This document shows, piece by piece, positions 1 through 6,747 of a DNA stretch of 6,838 nt. The DNA is from Desulfamplus sp. Its GTDB lineage: Bacteria > Desulfobacterota > Desulfobacteria > Desulfobacterales > Desulfobacteraceae. Position 1 is the first letter of the stretch, and each line of letters begins with the position of its first letter. The notes below the pieces were generated by a model, which was not told where the DNA came from, ran no database searches, and saw nothing but the letters and a program-made list of their open reading frames with translations. The DNA lies in NCBI GenBank assembly GCA_015231395.1, contig JADGBP010000126.1, forward strand, positions 1 to 6,838. The letters are read 5' to 3'. Both the position numbers and the translations under genes were made by a program.

Positions 1-1122
1 TCACAGTTATCAGAAAATGTTATCTCCGGAAAAATAGAAAATACGGCAACAGAAGAAGCCAAAATAAAAAAGCTCTTAATACAAGAAGGTAAAACAGAAC
101 AGCTCTCAATAGAAGAAGGCAACGCAGAAAATCTCTTAATAGAAGAAAGTAAAGCAAAAAACATCTCAATAGAAGAAGGCAAAGCAAAAAACTTTTCATC
201 AGAAGAAAGTTTGTCAGCTATTGTTAAAATTATCCGGACACTCCGGGGAGAAAACGGCTGTTCATGGGACAAAAAACAGACTCCTGAAACTATGTGGAAA
301 TGTTTGGCTGAAGAGATGTATGAGCTTTTGGCTGCAATTGAAGCTGATGATTCTGATGAAATATGTGAAGAATTAGGAGATGTTCTTTTTCAGCTTGTAT
401 TTATTGCTGAGATTTACCGTGAAAAGGGAAGTTTTGATATTAAAAAAAGCATCGCAAAAAGTGCTGCCAAAATGATCCGAAGACATCCTCATATTTATGG
501 AAAGAGTGTCATCAACAGTGATGAAGAGCTCTGGGCAAGCTGGGAGAGCATAAAGAAGGAGGAAAAAGAAGAAAAAAGAAAACAAGAAAAAAGCAGAATA
601 GAGGAGCAAGAAAGCAAAAAAGAGGAAAAGGAAAGCAACAAAGAGGCAAAAGAAAACCGAAAAGAGAAAAAAAAGGATCAAGACGAAAAAGAGAATTTCA
701 GCGAAAACAAAACAGTATCAGTTCTGGACTCCGTGCCAACTGGAATGCCCGCTCTGATGCGATCTTATAAAATTTCAGAACGTGCGGTCAGAGCTGGGTT
801 TGACTGGAAAGATATAGATGAAGTCATTGAAAAGGCATCAGAGGAGTGGAACGAATTCACTGTTGCCCTTGCAGAAGGAAATAAAAAAGATATCCAGATG
901 GAATTTGGAGATGTACTCTTCACTCTTGCTAATGTGGCACGTCTTGCAGGTATTCACCCTGAGATTGCTTTGAGTGGCTCTACCGTGAAGTTTGAAAAAA
1001 GATTCAAGTATATGGAGCAGAAACTTGCCGAAAAAGGATATTCGCTCAAGGATGTTCCCCGTCAAGATCTGGAAGTGCTTTGGGAGAAGGCAAAGGAGCA
1101 GGTTTATGATAGTTATTGTTGA
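1..1122 (+). CDS. mazG: MazG-type nucleoside triphosphate pyrophosphohydrolase, 5' end outside window
   Basis: MazG hydrolyses (d)NTPs to NMP and pyrophosphate, removing non-canonical nucleotides or tuning nucleotide pools in the cytoplasm. Two MazG domains are visible. The first begins near nt 220 (IVKIIRTLRGENG) and carries EEMYE followed by ELGD. The second carries EEWNE followed by EFGD. Both match the metal-binding EExxE...ExxD pattern. The domains are separated by a charged Lys/Glu linker (nt 550-708) much longer than usual, leading into the typical VLDSVPTGMPALMRSYK segment. The frame is open without a stop to nt 1, through an in-frame 30-bp repeat array, so the gene probably starts upstream of the window. 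The first conventional start codon in the window is TTG at 211, next to where family members normally begin, but it has only a weak AGAAAG upstream. Starting there would give 303 aa against about 263 aa for E. coli MazG. The 3' end overlaps hisH by 17 nt. Function is well supported; the true start is not. Confidence 0.9.
   Translation, partial: SQLSENVISGKIENTATEEAKIKKLLIQEGKTEQLSIEEGNAENLLIEESKAKNISIEEGKAKNFSSEESLSAIVKIIRTLRGENGCSWDKKQTPETMWKCLAEEMYELLAAIEADDSDEICEELGDVLFQLVFIAEIYREKGSFDIKKSIAKSAAKMIRRHPHIYGKSVINSDEELWASWESIKKEEKEEKRKQEKSRIEEQESKKEEKESNKEAKENRKEKKKDQDEKENFSENKTVSVLDSVPTGMPALMRSYKISERAVRAGFDWKDIDEVIEKASEEWNEFTVALAEGNKKDIQMEFGDVLFTLANVARLAGIHPEIALSGSTVKFEKRFKYMEQKLAEKGYSLKDVPRQDLEVLWEKAKEQVYDSYC
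73..222 (+). repeat. 30-bp in-frame tandem repeat at the mazG N-terminus
   Basis: Four 30-bp units lie at 73-102, 103-132, 133-162 and 163-192, with a degenerate fifth at 193-222. Each encodes ten residues: LLIQEGKTEQ, LSIEEGNAEN, LLIEESKAKN, ISIEEGKAKN, then FSSEESLSAI, which merges into the MazG domain. Adjacent units share about 26 of 30 bases by hand comparison. Weaker copies can be traced upstream at 43-72 (TATEEAKIKK) and about 19-42. The period is a multiple of three and no unit carries a stop in the mazG frame, so the array is most simply read as a translated acidic/basic N-terminal extension. It could instead be a non-coding leader if translation starts at TTG 211. Confidence 0.85.
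550..708 (+). repeat. Purine-rich low-complexity tract encoding the Lys/Glu linker of MazG
   Basis: About 160 nt composed almost entirely of A and G on the + strand encodes a linker of roughly 53 residues, dominated by Lys and Glu with scattered Ser, Asn, Gln and Arg. It contains loose KEEKE/ESKKE/ESNKEA-type iterations and several A-runs, the longest seven As at 668-674. It lies exactly between the two MazG domains, where family members have a short charged linker. The composition predicts a solvent-exposed, highly charged helix or disordered tether. It is imperfectly periodic, unlike the 30-bp array at the N-terminus. Confidence 0.7.
1092..1098 (+). promoter_or_regulatory. Ribosome binding site of hisH inside mazG
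   Basis: AAAGGAG lies 7 nt before ATG 1106, close to ideal spacing. This fixes the hisH start at 1106, where the canonical HisH N-terminus [11 protein letters not shown] begins, rather than at an in-frame upstream ATG at 992 that lies within mazG. The site lies within the last codons of mazG, so the two genes are probably translationally coupled. Confidence 0.85.
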
Positions 1123-1834
1123 TTACGGAGCAGGCAATCTGACAAGTGTGGCACGGGCAGTGTCATATCTTGGGTATGATTCAGTGATTACTGATGACCC
1201 TGAAAAGATAGCCTCCGCAGAAAGAGTTATCTTTCCGGGAGTGGGAGCAGCCGGTGCTGCCATGGAAGTAATGCGAAAAAAAGGTATTGACCATGCCTTA
1301 AAACAGACTTTTGAATCAGGGATTCCCATGCTTGGGATATGTGTGGGGTGTCAGATTATTATGGAGAGCAGCGAGGAAAACAATGCTTTATGTTTAGGGC
1401 TGATTCCAGGGAAAACCACTATGTTTTCAGCTCAAAACAGCATGTCCTCAGCTCAAAGCAGTATATCCGCATCTCAAAACAGTATATCTACATCTCAAAA
1501 TAGCATATCCGCATCTCAAAACAGTATATCTACATCTCAAAATAGCATGACTTCATCTGTCCTGAAAGTTCCCCATATGGGATGGAACGGGCTTAATATA
1601 GTTCAGGAACACCCGCTCCTTAATGGTATAAAACCTGAAGATGAATTTTATTTTGTACACAGCTATTTTCCGGTTCCAGTTGATCAAGGAGATGTCTATG
1701 GCAAAACAGAATATGGAATTACATTTGCGTCTGTAATTGGACGAAATCATCTTTTTGCAACGCAGTTTCATCTTGAAAAAAGTGGTGAACCAGGGTTGCT
1801 GATTTTAAAGAATTTTTGTCTTTGGGAGTCATGA
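1106..1834 (+). CDS. hisH: Imidazole glycerol phosphate synthase glutaminase subunit HisH, with internal repeat insertion
   Basis: HisH hydrolyses glutamine and channels ammonia to HisF in the fifth step of histidine biosynthesis. The 242-aa product is a class I glutamine amidotransferase: N-terminal VDYGAGN, oxyanion-strand region FPGVGA near residue 43, nucleophile Cys79 in [14 protein letters not shown] near 156-161, and His222 and Glu224 in QFHLEKSG completing the triad. The usual family length is about 200 aa. The excess is a 42-residue Ser/Gln/Asn-rich block (residues 108-149) made of six heptapeptide repeats between [10 protein letters not shown] and [10 protein letters not shown]. All catalytic residues lie outside it, so the enzyme is probably active. 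The gene overlaps mazG by 17 nt and is followed 25 nt later by hisF, its obligate partner. No other his gene is in the window. Confidence 0.95.
1427..1552 (+). repeat. 21-bp (42-bp higher-order) in-frame tandem repeat within hisH
   Basis: Six 21-bp units encode the heptads [35 protein letters not shown] and TSQNSMT. The last four form two consecutive 42-bp blocks (1469-1510 and 1511-1552) identical at 39 of 42 bases, indicating a recent duplication on top of the older 21-bp expansion. The array is exactly in frame and sits in a loop between two conserved HisH segments. Nothing in its sequence suggests a catalytic role. It probably forms a flexible polar loop. Confidence 0.95.
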
Positions 1835-1859
1835 TAAGACACGATGGAGATATTCAAAA

Positions 1860-2642
1860 ATGCTGAGTAAAAGAATTATTCCGTGCCTTGATGTACGTGA
1901 GGGTAGAACAACCAAAGGAATCAAGTTTGAGAACAATGTGGATATCGGAGATCCGGTTGAAATGGCACGTTTCTACTATGAAGCCGGTGCTGATGAACTC
2001 GTATTTTATGATATTACAGCATCTCACGAGAAAAGAAATATTATGATTGATGTAGTAAGACGAGTTGCTGAAACTATTTTTATCCCGTTTTCAGTGGGGG
2101 GAGGCATTAGAACTCTTGAAGATATGAGAGCAGTACTTCTGGCTGGTGCTGAAAAAGTAAGTGTCAACTCTGCTGCTGTTAAAAATCCCGCAATTATTTC
2201 TGAAGGTGCCAAAGCATTTGGAAATCAATGTGTTGTTTTAGGAATGGATGTCAAGTATGTGGGAGAGAAAAAAGGTATTCCATCCGGATATGAAATTGTT
2301 ATCAATGGTGGCAGAACATATATGGGGCTTGATGCACTGGAATGGGCACAAAAAGGGCAGAACCTCGGAGCAGGAGAAATATGCCTAAACTCCATTGATG
2401 CAGACGGAACTAAAGATGGTTATGAAATGAACCTGACCAGATTGATTTCAGACAATGTGACTATTCCTGTGATTGCTTCAGGAGGAGCCGGGAAACCGGA
2501 ACATCTTGCTGATGTACTGACAGATGGTCATGCAGATGCCGCCCTTATTGCATCTATGGTTCACTATGGAACCTATACAATTCATGATATTAAAACTTAC
2601 CTTGAGCAGCAAGGAATTAAAATCAGAAAAATAGCAAAATAA
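1860..2642 (+). CDS. hisF: Imidazole glycerol phosphate synthase cyclase subunit HisF
   Basis: HisF uses ammonia from HisH to convert PRFAR into imidazole glycerol phosphate and AICAR, linking histidine and purine synthesis. The 260-aa product is a full-length (beta/alpha)8 barrel of normal family size. Visible features are RIIPCLDV with the catalytic Asp11, Lys19, the phosphate-binding FSVGGGIRT (residues 77-85), VNSAAV, the second catalytic acid Asp130 in LGMDVK, and the second phosphate loop VIASGGAG (204-211). The retained Asp11 and Asp130 argue against the HisF-like paralogues of surface-polysaccharide clusters. GGAG at 1846-1849 lies 10 nt before ATG 1860. hisA is not adjacent, so this is a split his arrangement with only hisH and hisF together. 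No tandem repeat was seen in this gene. Confidence 0.97.
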
Positions 2643-2649
2643 TGAAAAA

Positions 2650-2955
2650 ATGAAAAAACAACTGACACACATCAGCAGCATTCTTGACAGTGCATTAAAA
2701 GCCTTTAGACCCAATGCTGATATGGAAATGACAAAAATATGGGATTTATGGCATATTTCTGTAGGAGAAACAATTGCCAGAGAGGCAAAACCAGGAGCAT
2801 TTAAGGATGGTATTCTTATAGTCCATGTTTCAAGCTCGGTCTGGATGCAGCAGTTAACATTTCTTAAGCGTAATATGATAGTCAAGCTTAATAATGCCCT
2901 GAACTGCGAGATGGTAAAGGAGATCAAATTTAAAATTGCAAATGTCCGCAACTGA
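2650..2955 (+). CDS. DUF721/DciA-family protein
   Basis: This 101-aa protein matches the DUF721 fold pattern. It has an N-terminal helix (ISSILDSALKAF), then WDLWHISVGETIAREAKP, then the hydrophobic strand GILIVHVSSSVWMQQLTFLK, and a C-terminal segment ending EIKFKIANVRN. DciA, the characterised member of this family, interacts with the replicative helicase DnaB and helps load it, so a role at replication initiation is possible but not shown here. The start ATG 2650 lies 7 nt after the hisF stop with no clear Shine-Dalgarno, only an A-rich stretch, suggesting translational coupling to hisF. The end overlaps the next gene. The product is short and appears complete; family assignment is by pattern recognition only. 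Confidence 0.8.
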   Translation: MKKQLTHISSILDSALKAFRPNADMEMTKIWDLWHISVGETIAREAKPGAFKDGILIVHVSSSVWMQQLTFLKRNMIVKLNNALNCEMVKEIKFKIANVRN

Positions 2956-3643
2956 ACTTCTCATGCAAATTCCTCCTGTTATTCAAACTACCCGTATCAT
3001 GCAAACTCCACATGTCATGGAAATTCCCCCTGAGATTCAGATTGATCAGCCAAAAAACGGTTATCGGTTTTCCATTGATCCTATTTTATTAATATCCCGT
3101 GTAATACCCGAAAAAGAAGAACGGATACTTGACATTGGTACAGGGTGTGGGATCATGCCTCTACTTCTTGCCTTCAAATATCCAAATATTCACATAACTG
3201 CTGTGGAGATACAAAAAAGTTTAGCACAATTTGCACAAAAAAATATTGTGGCAAATCATTTTAAAAACAGAATCACCCTGATTAATAGAGATATCAGACA
3301 AATAAGCAATGCAGACACTGGCGGCAGATTTGATAGAATTATCTCCAATCCACCTTATAAAAAAAAAGGAAGCGGAAGAGTTAATCCTGATATTCAAAAA
3401 GCCATTGCACGACATGAAATCACTTTGTCTCTCAACGAGCTGATCTTATGTGTTGCAAACTTTCTGAAACCAGGCGGGATATTGAATATTGTATATCCTG
3501 CTGATCGACTGATTGAATTGCAAAATGCCATGCTTAGACATTCCATTCAGCTTATTGACATGATATTTGTCAATACAAAAAAAGATAAAAAACCTAAACT
3601 TATGTTAATTACAGGGTGTGCCCAACAAAAAAGAAACATTTAA
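2942..3643 (+). CDS. trmN6: TrmN6-type tRNA1(Val) adenine-N6 methyltransferase, short C-terminus
   Basis: This is a class I SAM-dependent methyltransferase of the TrmN6/YfiC-like family (COG4123 type), whose characterised member methylates A37 of tRNA1(Val). Numbered from ATG 2942 (233 aa), it has the family lead-in GYRFSIDPILL (40-50), SAM motif I LDIGTGCG (63-70), acidic Glu89 after strand 2, and the catalytic NPPY (136-139) followed by KKKGSGRVNP and ARHE. Residues about 8-37 are a degenerate six-residue repeat preceding the fold. The product stops soon after KPKLMLITG, lacking the PL-x-IY...GxYTxE tail I expect in this family, so the C-terminus may be truncated by roughly 25 residues. TTG 2936 and ATG 2963 are alternative starts. 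AAAGGAG at 2916-2922 is rather far from all of them. The gene overlaps the DUF721 gene by 14 nt, implying coupling. Exact tRNA target is inferred. Confidence 0.8.
   Translation: MSATELLMQIPPVIQTTRIMQTPHVMEIPPEIQIDQPKNGYRFSIDPILLISRVIPEKEERILDIGTGCGIMPLLLAFKYPNIHITAVEIQKSLAQFAQKNIVANHFKNRITLINRDIRQISNADTGGRFDRIISNPPYKKKGSGRVNPDIQKAIARHEITLSLNELILCVANFLKPGGILNIVYPADRLIELQNAMLRHSIQLIDMIFVNTKKDKKPKLMLITGCAQQKRNI
2963..3052 (+). repeat. Degenerate 18-bp in-frame repeat at the trmN6 N-terminus
   Basis: Five 18-bp units at 2963, 2981, 2999, 3017 and 3035 encode MQIPPV, IQTTRI, MQTPHV, MEIPPE and IQIDQP. Unit 1 matches units 3 and 4 at about 14 of 18 bases and unit 2 less well, so the array is older or more diverged than the hisH one. 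It sits before the first conserved methyltransferase segment and adds about 30 residues that family members normally lack. Confidence 0.65.
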
Positions 3644-3644
3644 A

Positions 3645-3650
3645 AGAGGT
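3645..3650 (+). promoter_or_regulatory. Ribosome binding site deciding the aminomutase start
   Basis: AGAGGT lies 9 nt before ATG 3660. It supports ATG 3660 over the in-frame GTG at 3618, which lies inside trmN6 and has no comparable site. The site begins immediately after the trmN6 stop, so the two genes are separated by only 16 nt and are probably co-transcribed. Confidence 0.7.
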
Positions 3651-3659
3651 AGTACATTA

Positions 3660-5456
3660 ATGATCAATACAGGTAAATATTCTCCTGAATATCTTTTGTC
3701 GGAAATTCCCGAAATTTTTGAAATTGCACGTCAATATAATACTGTTGATGAATTCCGTAAAAAAGCAGCAGAATACGTTCATAAAATGCAGTATGAAACC
3801 TTTGATGAATTTAATTTGTTCAGCGAAGGAAGTATTATACGTGTTAGAGACTGTGCTCAGGTTATTAACCAGATTTTTACTTGTCGTTCGGAAGAAAAAT
3901 CACAATTCTCTGTAGTTCAGGCAATAATGGATATTGCCCACAGTGTGCCACGACCAGATCTTTATTCAGCATTCTATGCGGAAATTCTTCATCTTTTTTT
4001 AGGATTGCATGGCAGATCACCACGTCCAAGATTTGCGGATCACCACCTTATACCCAGCGGACTGGAAGGGAGGGAAGCTGCCATAGAGCGAAGCGGTCAG
4101 CTTGACACCTTGTCAGAAGATGTTTCAAGGTATATGAGAAGATATTCTGACGGGCTTGAAAAAACATCTGTTGCTCGCCGTGAAAAAAGGCGTGATCATA
4201 TTATAAAAATACTAAACGCCTCTTTAAGTGACTGGTATAACTGGAAATGGCAATACAATAATGTTATGCGTAGTGCAGAGAAGATTAAACAGCTTGTAAA
4301 CCTTACTCCTGATCAGGCTCTATCTCTGGAAATGGCACGGAAAAGCCGTATCCCGTTTGGAATCACACCATACTATCTCTCCCTTATGGACGAAGACCCT
4401 GATTTAGGAAGAGATCTTGCTATCAGAGCACAGGTGATCCCCCCACTCAGTTATACAGAGCAGGTGTCAGAACATGACAAAAAAGATATATCCTGCCTTG
4501 ATTTTATGCGTGAAACTGACACATCTCCTGTAGATCTGATTACACGGCGTTATCCTTCCATCTGCATTTTCAAGCCTTTTAACACATGTCCGCAGATATG
4601 CGTATATTGCCAGAGAAACTGGGAAATCAAAGATGCCATGACTCCAGGAGCAATGGCTTCGGAAAAACAGATTCTTGAGGCTCTTCAGTGGATTCGCGAG
4701 CATCCCGCCATTCATGAGGTACTGATTACAGGAGGAGATCCGTTTGGAATGAGTGACCGAAATCTGGAACGTATCCTTTCAGGGGTTGCAGATATTCCTT
4801 CTATAGAGCGAATCCGGATTGGAACAAGAACACCTGTGACCGCACCGATGAGGATTACAGATGATCTTGTCAATATTTTAACCAAACACAGAAAAAAAGG
4901 CAGGATCCAGATTGCGATCGTGACCCATATTCAACACTCATATGAACTGACACCTGAAACAGCAGAAGCGGTGAAACGTTTAACAAACAACTCCATATCT
5001 GTTTTCAATCAACTTGTTTATACATTTTTTGTATCACGGCGTTTTGAAGCGTCATATTTAAGAAGAAATCTTACCCGTATCGGAGTGCAGCCCTATTACT
5101 CCTTTAACACAAAAGGAAAAGATGAGACTGTTGAATATCGGGTTCCCATAGCTCGTCTGCTTCAGGAACAAAAAGAGGAAGCAAGGCTTCTTCCTGGTAT
5201 TTCTCGAACTGATGAGGCAGTTTATAATGTGCCAGGAATGGGAAAAAACTATCTGCGTGCCCGTCAGCACCGTGATCTGATTTCCATTCTTCCGGACGGC
5301 ACAAGAGTGTATGAATTTCATCCATGGGAAAAAAATATTACAAAAAATATATCCACACACATTGGGTATGATGTTCCAATACTTGATTATCTCATCCGGT
5401 TAGACGCTGCTGGAGAGGATATATCGGATTATGAGACAATATGGTATTATTTTTGA
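3660..5456 (+). CDS. KamA-family radical SAM/PLP aminomutase, glutamate 2,3-aminomutase-like
   Basis: This family moves an alpha-amino group to the beta carbon using a 4Fe-4S/SAM radical and PLP. In the 598-aa product the cluster motif is Cys310-x3-Cys314-x2-Cys317, followed by Arg319 at the position of the carboxylate-binding Arg of lysine 2,3-aminomutase (LAM). ITGGDP lies at 356-361, IRIGTRTPV near 385-393 and PLP-lysine motif PGMGK at 525-529 (Lys529). The LAM-like core starts near WYNWKWQYNN (192-201). LAM binds the lysine side chain with Asp293 and Asp330; the aligned residues here are Lys485 (PYYSFNTK) and Asn523 (VYNVPGMGK). As I recall, glutamate 2,3-aminomutase has Lys and Asn at these sites, so glutamate to beta-glutamate is the likelier reaction. 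Residues 1 to about 185 are an N-terminal extension I do not recognise. It follows trmN6 by 16 nt, and its stop lies in the first copy of a 21-bp repeat. Confidence 0.88.
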   Translation: MINTGKYSPEYLLSEIPEIFEIARQYNTVDEFRKKAAEYVHKMQYETFDEFNLFSEGSIIRVRDCAQVINQIFTCRSEEKSQFSVVQAIMDIAHSVPRPDLYSAFYAEILHLFLGLHGRSPRPRFADHHLIPSGLEGREAAIERSGQLDTLSEDVSRYMRRYSDGLEKTSVARREKRRDHIIKILNASLSDWYNWKWQYNNVMRSAEKIKQLVNLTPDQALSLEMARKSRIPFGITPYYLSLMDEDPDLGRDLAIRAQVIPPLSYTEQVSEHDKKDISCLDFMRETDTSPVDLITRRYPSICIFKPFNTCPQICVYCQRNWEIKDAMTPGAMASEKQILEALQWIREHPAIHEVLITGGDPFGMSDRNLERILSGVADIPSIERIRIGTRTPVTAPMRITDDLVNILTKHRKKGRIQIAIVTHIQHSYELTPETAEAVKRLTNNSISVFNQLVYTFFVSRRFEASYLRRNLTRIGVQPYYSFNTKGKDETVEYRVPIARLLQEQKEEARLLPGISRTDEAVYNVPGMGKNYLRARQHRDLISILPDGTRVYEFHPWEKNITKNISTHIGYDVPILDYLIRLDAAGEDISDYETIWYYF

Positions 5457-5579
5457 ATTTGTATAGAGCTTGTCTGAATTTGTATAGAGCTTGTCTGAAT
5501 TTGTATAGAGCTTGTTTGAATTTGTATAGAGCTTGTTTGAATTTGTATAGAGCTTGTTTGAATTTGTATAGAGCATATT
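5454..5579 (+). repeat. Intergenic 21-bp direct tandem repeat, six copies
   Basis: Units start at 5454, 5475, 5496, 5517, 5538 and 5559. Each begins TGAATTTGTATAGAGC and the first five continue with five more bases differing only in the last one (C in units 1-2, T in units 3-5). Unit 6 diverges after the first 16 bases. The TGA of unit 1 is the stop codon of the upstream aminomutase gene. There are no spacers, so this is a minisatellite, not a CRISPR. It fills essentially the whole gap up to the possible TTG start of the permease gene. No clear stem-loop terminator is seen in this gap. Confidence 0.97.
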
Positions 5580-6747
5580 GCAGAACTCAAACCACCTATT
5601 TCAGATAGTTTTCACGATAAGAATTACGGTAAGAATTACGGTAAGAATTACGGTAAGAATTAAAGAATTAAAAAGGTGTATTATAGTCAGATACAAAAAT
5701 AGAATAGAAATACAAATCCCTCAGCTTTTTATAATCATGTTTCTTCTCCTTATGGTCTTTGTGGCTCTCCATCTTGATATTCCAATGAACTGGATTATAA
5801 GTGATGCCCTGATAAGACTTGTGATGAACGGAGTATTGGTTCTCTCTCTTGTGCCAATGCTTAAAGCTGGCATTGGTATCAATTTTGGACTGCCAGTTGG
5901 TGTGATTGCGGGGCTTATTGGTATGTGCATATCTGTAAATTTTACCATTCGGGGAATTTGGGGATTGTTTGCATCAATGCTCTTTGCAGTGCCTGCGGCT
6001 GTGGTTCTGGGGTTTATTTATGCCATGATTCTAAACCGGGTCAGGGGGAGAGAGGAGATTACAGCCACATTTGTAGGTTTTTCTTTTATACCCCTGATGA
6101 ATTTTTTCTGGGCAACAGCACCATTTTCCAACCCTGGAATGCTTTGGCCTATTGGTGGCAAAGGTATGCGTCCTGTAATTGGCTTGAAAAGCTATTTTGC
6201 CAAAACACTCAATGATCTCTGGATGGTAAATATTGGAGGAGTTAATCTGCCTTTAGGGCTGCTGTTATTCTTTTTCATACTTTGTATTCTCATGGCTCTT
6301 TTTTTCAAAACCACCTTTGGAAGAGCAACCGTTGCAGTTGGTGAAAATGAGCAATACGCCTCTCTTGCTGGAGTAAATATAGTCAAGGTAAGAACGGTTT
6401 CTATTATTCTCTCCACCATAATTGCAGCTATTGGTATCTGTATTTATGCCCAGAGCTACGGATTTATTGAGCTTTACGATGCTCCTTTAATGATGGCATT
6501 TCCGGCAGCATCAGCCATTCTGGTTGGAGGGAGCATGGGTAGAAAGACCGATATTGTTCATGTTATTCTTGGCACCTTTCTTTTTCAGACCACCTATCTT
6601 ATTTCTGGTCCTATTGCCAATGAGCTTATGGTGTCAGAGGTTGCCGAGATATTCAGACTTATGGTTACTAATGGAATTATTCTTTATGCTTTATTATATG
6701 AAGGTGGTATTGGTAGGAAGAATTCGCATGGTAAAGGGAGTTATTAA
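5578..6747 (+). CDS. ABC importer permease, BPD_transp_2 (RbsC/simple sugar-nucleoside) type
   Basis: This is an integral membrane permease of the family that imports sugars, nucleosides or branched-chain amino acids with an ATPase and a binding protein. Numbered from TTG 5578 (389 aa), hydrophobic segments lie near 49-66, 82-120, 125-153, 163-180, 225-243, 272-292, 305-320, 326-344 and 357-374. The cytoplasmic coupling segment FGRATVAVGENEQYASLAGVN (split here as FGRATVAVGENEQY and ASLAGVN, 247-267) matches the family pattern RAvGxNxxxAxxxGI. The substrate cannot be told from the sequence. The start is doubtful: TTG 5578 has only a weak GAG upstream. The next in-frame start, ATG 5737, falls inside the first membrane helix and also lacks a site. 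Residues about 14-28 are a RITV repeat. A second transporter gene probably follows 41 nt downstream, and the ATPase and binding protein would lie outside the window. Confidence 0.85.
   Translation: MQNSNHLFQIVFTIRITVRITVRITVRIKELKRCIIVRYKNRIEIQIPQLFIIMFLLLMVFVALHLDIPMNWIISDALIRLVMNGVLVLSLVPMLKAGIGINFGLPVGVIAGLIGMCISVNFTIRGIWGLFASMLFAVPAAVVLGFIYAMILNRVRGREEITATFVGFSFIPLMNFFWATAPFSNPGMLWPIGGKGMRPVIGLKSYFAKTLNDLWMVNIGGVNLPLGLLLFFFILCILMALFFKTTFGRATVAVGENEQYASLAGVNIVKVRTVSIILSTIIAAIGICIYAQSYGFIELYDAPLMMAFPAASAILVGGSMGRKTDIVHVILGTFLFQTTYLISGPIANELMVSEVAEIFRLMVTNGIILYALLYEGGIGRKNSHGKGSY
5619..5670 (+). repeat. 12-bp tandem repeat at the permease N-terminus
   Basis: Three perfect AAGAATTACGGT units lie at 5619-5630, 5631-5642 and 5643-5654. 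A partial unit AAGAATTA follows at 5655-5662, and that octamer is duplicated at 5663-5670. In the permease frame the array reads RITV repeated. The four-codon period keeps the frame open. It separates the only upstream start codon (TTG 5578) from the first membrane helix, so it either lengthens the cytoplasmic N-terminus or lies in the untranslated leader. Confidence 0.95.

Follow-up and report, generated by a model that had tools for sequence, protein, structure and literature searches.

The window, that is, the whole 6,838-bp stretch of DNA analysed here (contig JADGBP010000126.1, C29 in this work), belongs to a Desulfamplus metagenome-assembled genome (MAG; GCA_015231395.1, hereafter G000) of 2.81 Mb in 548 contigs, which is 52% complete with an estimated contamination of 0.21%. 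Its gene content, assigned by Pfam matches, includes mazG, hisH, hisF, a DciA-like gene, a gene coding for a TrmN6-like methyltransferase, a radical-SAM gene, which we take to be of the lysine-aminomutase type, and an ABC permease gene. The contig end falls inside mazG at the window start, and the start codon of this gene is therefore unseen. Six tandem arrays are distributed over the window (Table 1), against a chance expectation of about 0.06 per window, and each of the six described in the original prediction was recovered at its place with Tandem Repeats Finder (TRF). With a probability of about two in three, the window reflects an accumulation of short tandem repeats throughout the genome, at a higher density than in any of four sampled congeners, in which arrays would be born as short duplications, grow by slippage, be filtered for reading frame and be tolerated.

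Table 1 Tandem arrays and associated features of the window. MITE, miniature inverted-repeat transposable element; G and L numbers are the handles of genomes and of sequence loci used in this work.
Feature	Position	Strand	Basis
30-bp × 4.8 array in the extended N-terminus of MazG (open-frame residues about 17-63)	47..191	+	TRF
Degenerate 21-bp × 5.4 Lys/Glu array, linker between the two MazG halves	559..672	+	TRF, 69% match
hisH gene	1106..1834	+	Pfam GATase
21/42-bp array (heptads) in the HisH loop, residues about 108-151	1426..1558	+	TRF; insertion in alignment
Weak 18-bp × 3.7 array, N-terminus of the TrmN6-like methyltransferase	2961..3027	+	TRF, 69% match, score 57
Near-perfect intergenic 21-bp × 5.9 array, starting at the radical-SAM stop codon	5452..5574	+	TRF, 98% match
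Degenerate end of the 146-bp MITE, where the 21-bp array runs out	5569..5611	+	36/43 bases (84%) as in the end of L005:1398-1543
12-bp × 4.1 array upstream of conserved permease sequence	5614..5662	+	TRF; permease 5′ flanks of G003, G004, G005
3′ remnant (RIKKVYYSQIQK + stop), 12 codons	5664..5702	+	Frame runs 348 codons upstream of the permease in G004

The abundance of arrays was determined in 48 stretches of G000, window included, totalling 513,447 bp or 18% of the MAG. Arrays were called with TRF at a score of at least 50 and a period of at least 6 (shorter ones were dropped), overlapping rows being merged into one. This resulted in 225 arrays, namely 105 coding, 106 intergenic and 14 mixed, the last counted neither as coding nor as intergenic. 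The density is 4.38 arrays per 10 kb, or 4.32 without the window (bootstrap 3.60-5.08); 11 of the 47 other stretches contain no array at all, and relative to its own genome the window is only mildly array-rich (at least six arrays, P = 0.08). A third-order Markov sequence of 513 kb gave 4-5 arrays, as did 410 kb of codon-shuffled genes, and neither null yielded any array with a score of at least 80, against 128 in G000. Four congeners were sampled at 80-400 kb each: G001, taken as D. magnetovallimortis, has 1.78 arrays per 10 kb, G004 1.01, G007 1.05 and G009 1.01, while two other genera of the same family, G024 and G023, have 0.64 and 0.75, respectively. A strict rule was also applied (perfect repeats of at least 50 nt with at least three units), taken from the part of the paper on Borg elements used here (Schoelmerich et al. 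2023, PMC9879509), to which all statements on Borgs below are limited. It selected 17 rows in G000 (33/Mb), two of them parts of one array, versus none in 556 kb of G004, G007 and G009 together, three in 400 kb of G001, one in 140 kb of G024 and none in 120 kb of G023. The genome-wide process that had been proposed from the window alone is supported by these counts, as is the claim that the units are mostly unrelated, with only 10 similar pairs found among the 225 arrays.

The repeats are mostly imperfect, the mean unit match in G000 being 85% for coding and 89% for intergenic arrays. This imperfection and the unrelatedness of the units make it very improbable that misassembled or foreign contigs created or imported the arrays, even though the MAG is fragmented. 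The low estimated contamination also argues against such an artefact, as do the best congener matches of mazG (70%), hisH (73%) and hisF (95%), and according to the Borg paper (PMC9879509) assembly tends to collapse repeats, not to make them.

Some dispersed intergenic repeats were encountered as well. A family with a 51-bp unit stands in tandem at L246:11123-11269, L250:13366-13517 and L251:9006-9132, and a family of 60-67-bp repeats at L236:17604-17723, L243:1229-1444 and L253:11442-11636. Unaligned look-alikes of the latter were noticed by eye in G001 (L156:16350, L158:16969 and L169:12019), and this family is perhaps common to G000 and D. magnetovallimortis.

The periods of the coding arrays in G000 span 6-54 bp, peaking at 15, 18 and 21, and leave a remainder of 0, 1 and 2 on division by three in 104, 1 and 0 cases, respectively (n = 105), in agreement with the predicted selection against arrays that break the frame. 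This frame rule alone is ordinary, since coding satellites with periods that are multiples of three (3n) are common across prokaryotes, as described in the part of Subirana and Messeguer (2019, PMC6749651) considered here. The intergenic arrays are less clear. It had been suggested that the mechanism itself, or former coding status, might favour 3n periods in gaps too, and the overall count agrees, with 52 of 106 intergenic arrays being 3n (P = 6e-4), or 48 of 98 with repeat families counted once (P = 0.001). However, the preference is not established in clean gaps, where the share is 24/54 (gaps of up to 500 bp, families counted once; P = 0.058), and gaps of up to 300 bp give 20/45 (P = 0.08). 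The excess is strongest in gaps longer than 500 bp or at contig ends (24/44, P = 0.003), where uncalled or decayed genes are likely and may account for it; for G001 the intergenic 3n count is 14 of 33 (P = 0.18). A duplication mechanism which itself prefers 3n periods, in gaps as well as in genes, is for these counts a quite improbable explanation. Clean gaps contain 353 arrays/Mb per non-3n residue class and 565/Mb for the 3n class, and the density of in-frame arrays in genes is 254/Mb; with the non-3n classes as the yardstick, in-frame arrays in genes therefore persist at about 70% of what neutrality would give.

In the G000 sample, 66 of the 389 called genes (17%) possess an array, against 8-10% in the four congeners and 2-5% in the two other genera. 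Array residues are enriched in T, S, Q, N, H and K and depleted in W, Y, R, F, M and C, and the A content of the coding strand is 38.3% in arrays versus 31.7% in genes. Thirty of the 66 array proteins, plus three of the window, were scanned with Pfam, on which their names rest, and their localisation is judged from the family names. Many are cytosolic enzyme families (TrpCF, Dxr, PrmC, TsaD, YchF, TrpE, ClpA, riboflavin synthase, PurD/PurE and UDG), others are envelope or signalling families (MltA, NamZ, TonB, FliL, MCP and histidine kinases), and two of the 30 have no Pfam match. In TrpCF and TrpE the array is located between the two domains; in TsaD, riboflavin synthase and Dxr it follows the domain, and in PrmC it precedes it. 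The claim that coding arrays avoid conserved motifs holds broadly but not throughout, as the arrays of a ClpA-like protein (AAA_2), a CobB-like protein (CbiA), PurD and an amino acid kinase lie inside domain envelopes, and a ParA/Mrp-like ATPase with Fe-S domains (L139:6454-7380) has its P-loop stretch KGGTGKTT duplicated in frame with a 54-bp period. TrpCF aligns across its array in eight congeners with varying spans, and the Dxr array region (residues 411-462) lies beyond the aligning part in any of nine congeners. An alignment break near residue 170 was observed in the Dxr of G004, G005, G006 and G007, and judging by the alignment these congeners seem to have an insertion of their own there, with none in G000.

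The history of individual sites was followed for hisH in 13 relatives and for mazG in 10. G001, G002 and the outgroups have short array sites in both genes; in G003, G004 and G008 the sites vary and mostly lack repeats. In MazG, whose domain match begins at residue 93, the N-terminal site varies among G003, G004 and G008, none of which has such an array, and is short in G001 and the five outgroups, and the linker is short in G001, G002 and the outgroups and longer in G008, G003 and G004. The length of the HisH loop was parsed in 51 of 120 listed HisH proteins. Among the 14 closest it ranges from 21 to 74 residues, among the remaining 37 from 19 to 26, with the D. magnetovallimortis loop of 20 residues belonging to the latter group. 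The hisH of G003 contains a different, 18-bp array in the same loop, and the printed loops of the close HisH proteins have no common repeat. Thus, for these two genes, identical arrays are not conserved in relatives, as had been expected, and the sites fit recurrent expansion at tolerant loops followed by decay, the latter step being the one we infer. The AlphaFold2 model of HisH, built on 56 of the 120 sequences, is confident (mean predicted local distance difference test score, pLDDT, 86) except for segments 113-126, 128-136 and 138-153, which are below 50, so the array loop is predicted to be disordered in an otherwise confident fold. Despite the array, C79, H222 and E224, presumably the catalytic residues, are invariant in the 56 aligned sequences. 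As a side observation, G002 (L043) has a 40-bp × 2.8 array with a 94% match, which begins about 59 bases before the open frame of hisH and reaches base 51 of that frame.

The expansion of one loop in several close HisH proteins could also be read as selection for the repeats, with the disordered segments doing a job such as condensation, binding or regulation, as proposed for Borg repeat proteins (PMC9879509). The residue make-up is disorder-promoting, as reported for Borgs, and the codon differences between neighbouring units give a ratio of nonsynonymous to synonymous differences (pN/pS) of 0.62, which is weak constraint. We consider selected function unlikely, however, given that in-frame arrays are not denser per base in genes than in gaps (254 versus 565/Mb), that the units are nearly all unrelated, that the close HisH loops lack a common repeat and that unrelated enzymes are struck.

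For the intergenic 21-bp array, a place of birth can be proposed. Each of its units (5452-5574) consists of flanking sequence and the tip of a MITE terminal repeat (compare TAGAGCTTGT with TAGAGCGTGT). Two complete 146-bp copies of this MITE with 14-bp inverted ends were found at L004:819-964 and L005:1398-1543; the ends, TAGAGCGTGTCGCA, begin and finish with TA, and further ones are present at L149:6626-6655 and L150:74-87. No TRF match with a score of at least 30 was obtained in the 400 bp after the orthologous radical-SAM gene in G008, G005 and G009. Since the units span both the flank and the tip of the element, the array was likely born across a MITE insertion junction, which thus would have served as an array birth site too. 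A generalisation, according to which every array would have grown from the end of a MITE or insertion sequence (IS) that had inserted there, would find further support in the degenerate MITE end into which this array runs and in a 40-bp array in L150 that starts directly at another MITE end. As a general cause, though, it was rejected and appears far-fetched: the 513 kb of G000 contain four terminal-repeat matches (one element family, up to two mismatches) against 225 arrays, and the units are unrelated.

The way in which duplications arise was approached through the 77 perfect duplications in G000 whose period is 14-60; 59 of them have fewer than three copies. After 40 of these 59 had been excluded because a third copy may once have existed, 19 without any sign of a decayed one were left, and 14 of the 19 show 0-2 nt of junction homology (13 of 18 if two rows that are copies of one unit are counted once). 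A purely blunt process predicts 95%, so some homology-guided events are likely, and blunt, homology-independent birth probably predominates without being the sole route. Microhomology or slippage between short repeats was considered because of a raw mean junction match of 5.5 nt and rejected, as flank identity rises with the junction match in the way decayed third copies would cause. End joining was rejected as well, Ku not being found in any of the 10 genomes of the genus, several of which are incomplete. Missing repair genes were dropped as a cause, since the failure to find polA (PF02739, PF00476) and MutS_V in G000 says little for a half-complete MAG.

In the explanation we favour, duplications of 12-36 bp would be produced at a high rate both within genes and in gaps, as opposed to being slowly lost, and the young duplications would then lengthen by slippage. 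In genes, loss of frame would purge nearly all non-3n arrays, and the survivors, kept at a near-neutral level mostly between domains, at protein ends or in surface loops, would be tolerated as disordered inserts; disorder is predicted for HisH and judged from composition elsewhere. The same loops would be struck again in different lineages, and old arrays would decay into the non-repetitive expanded loops of the congeners. In a stronger and more tentative form, to which we give somewhat less than even odds, one Desulfamplus lineage would be in a standing mutator state, in which homology-free 12-36-bp duplications under frame selection provide a continuing supply of disordered loops to core enzymes; this would be the counterpart, in a bacterium, of the Borg repeats.

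Several observations weigh against this explanation. Array-bearing genes are only about twice as frequent as in the congeners, so the excess concerns genes less than it does gaps and strict repeats, and with the 3n class of clean gaps as the yardstick the coding density is only 45% of the expected level; these two figures lower both our confidence and the contrast between G000 and its congeners. The small sample of G002 is nearly as rich as G000 (4 arrays in 10.8 kb, 3.7 per 10 kb), and this congener may be array-rich too, while those of G003 (3 in 33 kb, 0.9), G008 (6 in 40 kb, 1.5) and G005 (2 in 13 kb, 1.6) are poorer; none of the four small samples contains strict repeats. The weak constraint seen in pN/pS, the shortfall from a purely blunt birth, the large fraction of two-copy duplications set aside and, for bacterial end joining as the birth route, the failure to find Ku point in the same direction. 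The 120 listed HisH proteins include no second strain of the species (the next match is 73%), which leaves a change in unit number conjectural. Finally, G000 is incomplete and fragmented (52%, 548 contigs), and genes were called with a simple purpose-made codon-usage caller that ignored repeat letters in scoring.

Other systems are known in which repeats enter many proteins. Rickettsia palindromic elements form in-frame inserts in unrelated housekeeping proteins and belong to families of one mobile kind each, unlike the unrelated units of G000. Among known systems the Borg tandem repeats come closest; they are pervasive, unrelated, independently formed and rarely common to orthologues, with 18- and 21-nt units among the examples (PMC9879509). 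Borgs and G000 share units divisible by three within open reading frames (104/105 here), nearly all of them unique (10 similar pairs among 225 arrays here), an A-rich coding strand with disorder-promoting residues, and arrays absent from orthologues (established here for hisH and mazG only, the hisH of G003 having a different array). Borg repeats, however, are mostly perfect, whereas G000 has 17 strict rows beside 225 TRF arrays with mean matches of 85-89%; the strict density is about 55/Mb (46 per 829 kb) in Borgs versus 33/Mb, and the intergenic 3n share 14-38% versus 49%. Borgs are moreover linear and extrachromosomal and bear terminal inverted repeats, while the G000 arrays occur in core genes of a bacterial MAG, those for his and trp functions among them. 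Borg repeat proteins are often extracellular or membrane-bound; among the 30 scanned here cytosolic as well as envelope or signalling families occur, and as far as these 30 go the kinds of proteins concerned may differ too. Prokaryotic satellites, in the part of PMC6749651 considered, are likewise unique and scattered over some genomes, with the periods of long repeats often 3n and coding; G000 adds to them the contrast with congeners in genes and gaps, the densities not being comparable as the definitions in use differ. The constant-size repeats of Bacillus, as described in the excerpt of PMC8161180 used, also comprise many differing repeats per genome, but with a constant unit size, against 6-54 bp in coding arrays here. 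The unusual part in G000 is the density in one lineage together with the wide occurrence in core enzymes. Should the rate be as high as it appears, young repeats would currently be lengthening about one in six genes of a free-living bacterium, core enzymes included, and the birth of disordered loops and their tolerance by enzymes would become directly measurable across sister species with and without each insert. D. magnetovallimortis, with its 1.78 arrays per 10 kb and presumably available in culture, would make the mutation rate testable.

As for the remaining features of the window, the 18-bp array of the methyltransferase is situated upstream of the MTS domain (Pfam) and is absent from both readable orthologue N-termini (G004 and G007); these N-termini and the permease 5′ flanks were read from plus-strand orthologue loci only. 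For the DciA, methyltransferase, radical-SAM and permease genes (window 2650-6747) no match was obtained in the stretches surrounding hisH-hisF in the 13 relatives, and none of these stretches therefore joins the two halves of the window. The original prediction had taken the 12-bp array for the N-terminus of the permease. This assignment is uncertain: the permease sequence common to G003, G004 and G005 starts later, at about 5704. The array does fall within the permease open frame counted from a TTG at 5578, and it may, going by the frame, still be coding sequence of the permease. The short remnant between the array and the shared permease sequence corresponds to the end of a frame in G004 which we take to be glycosyltransferase-like.

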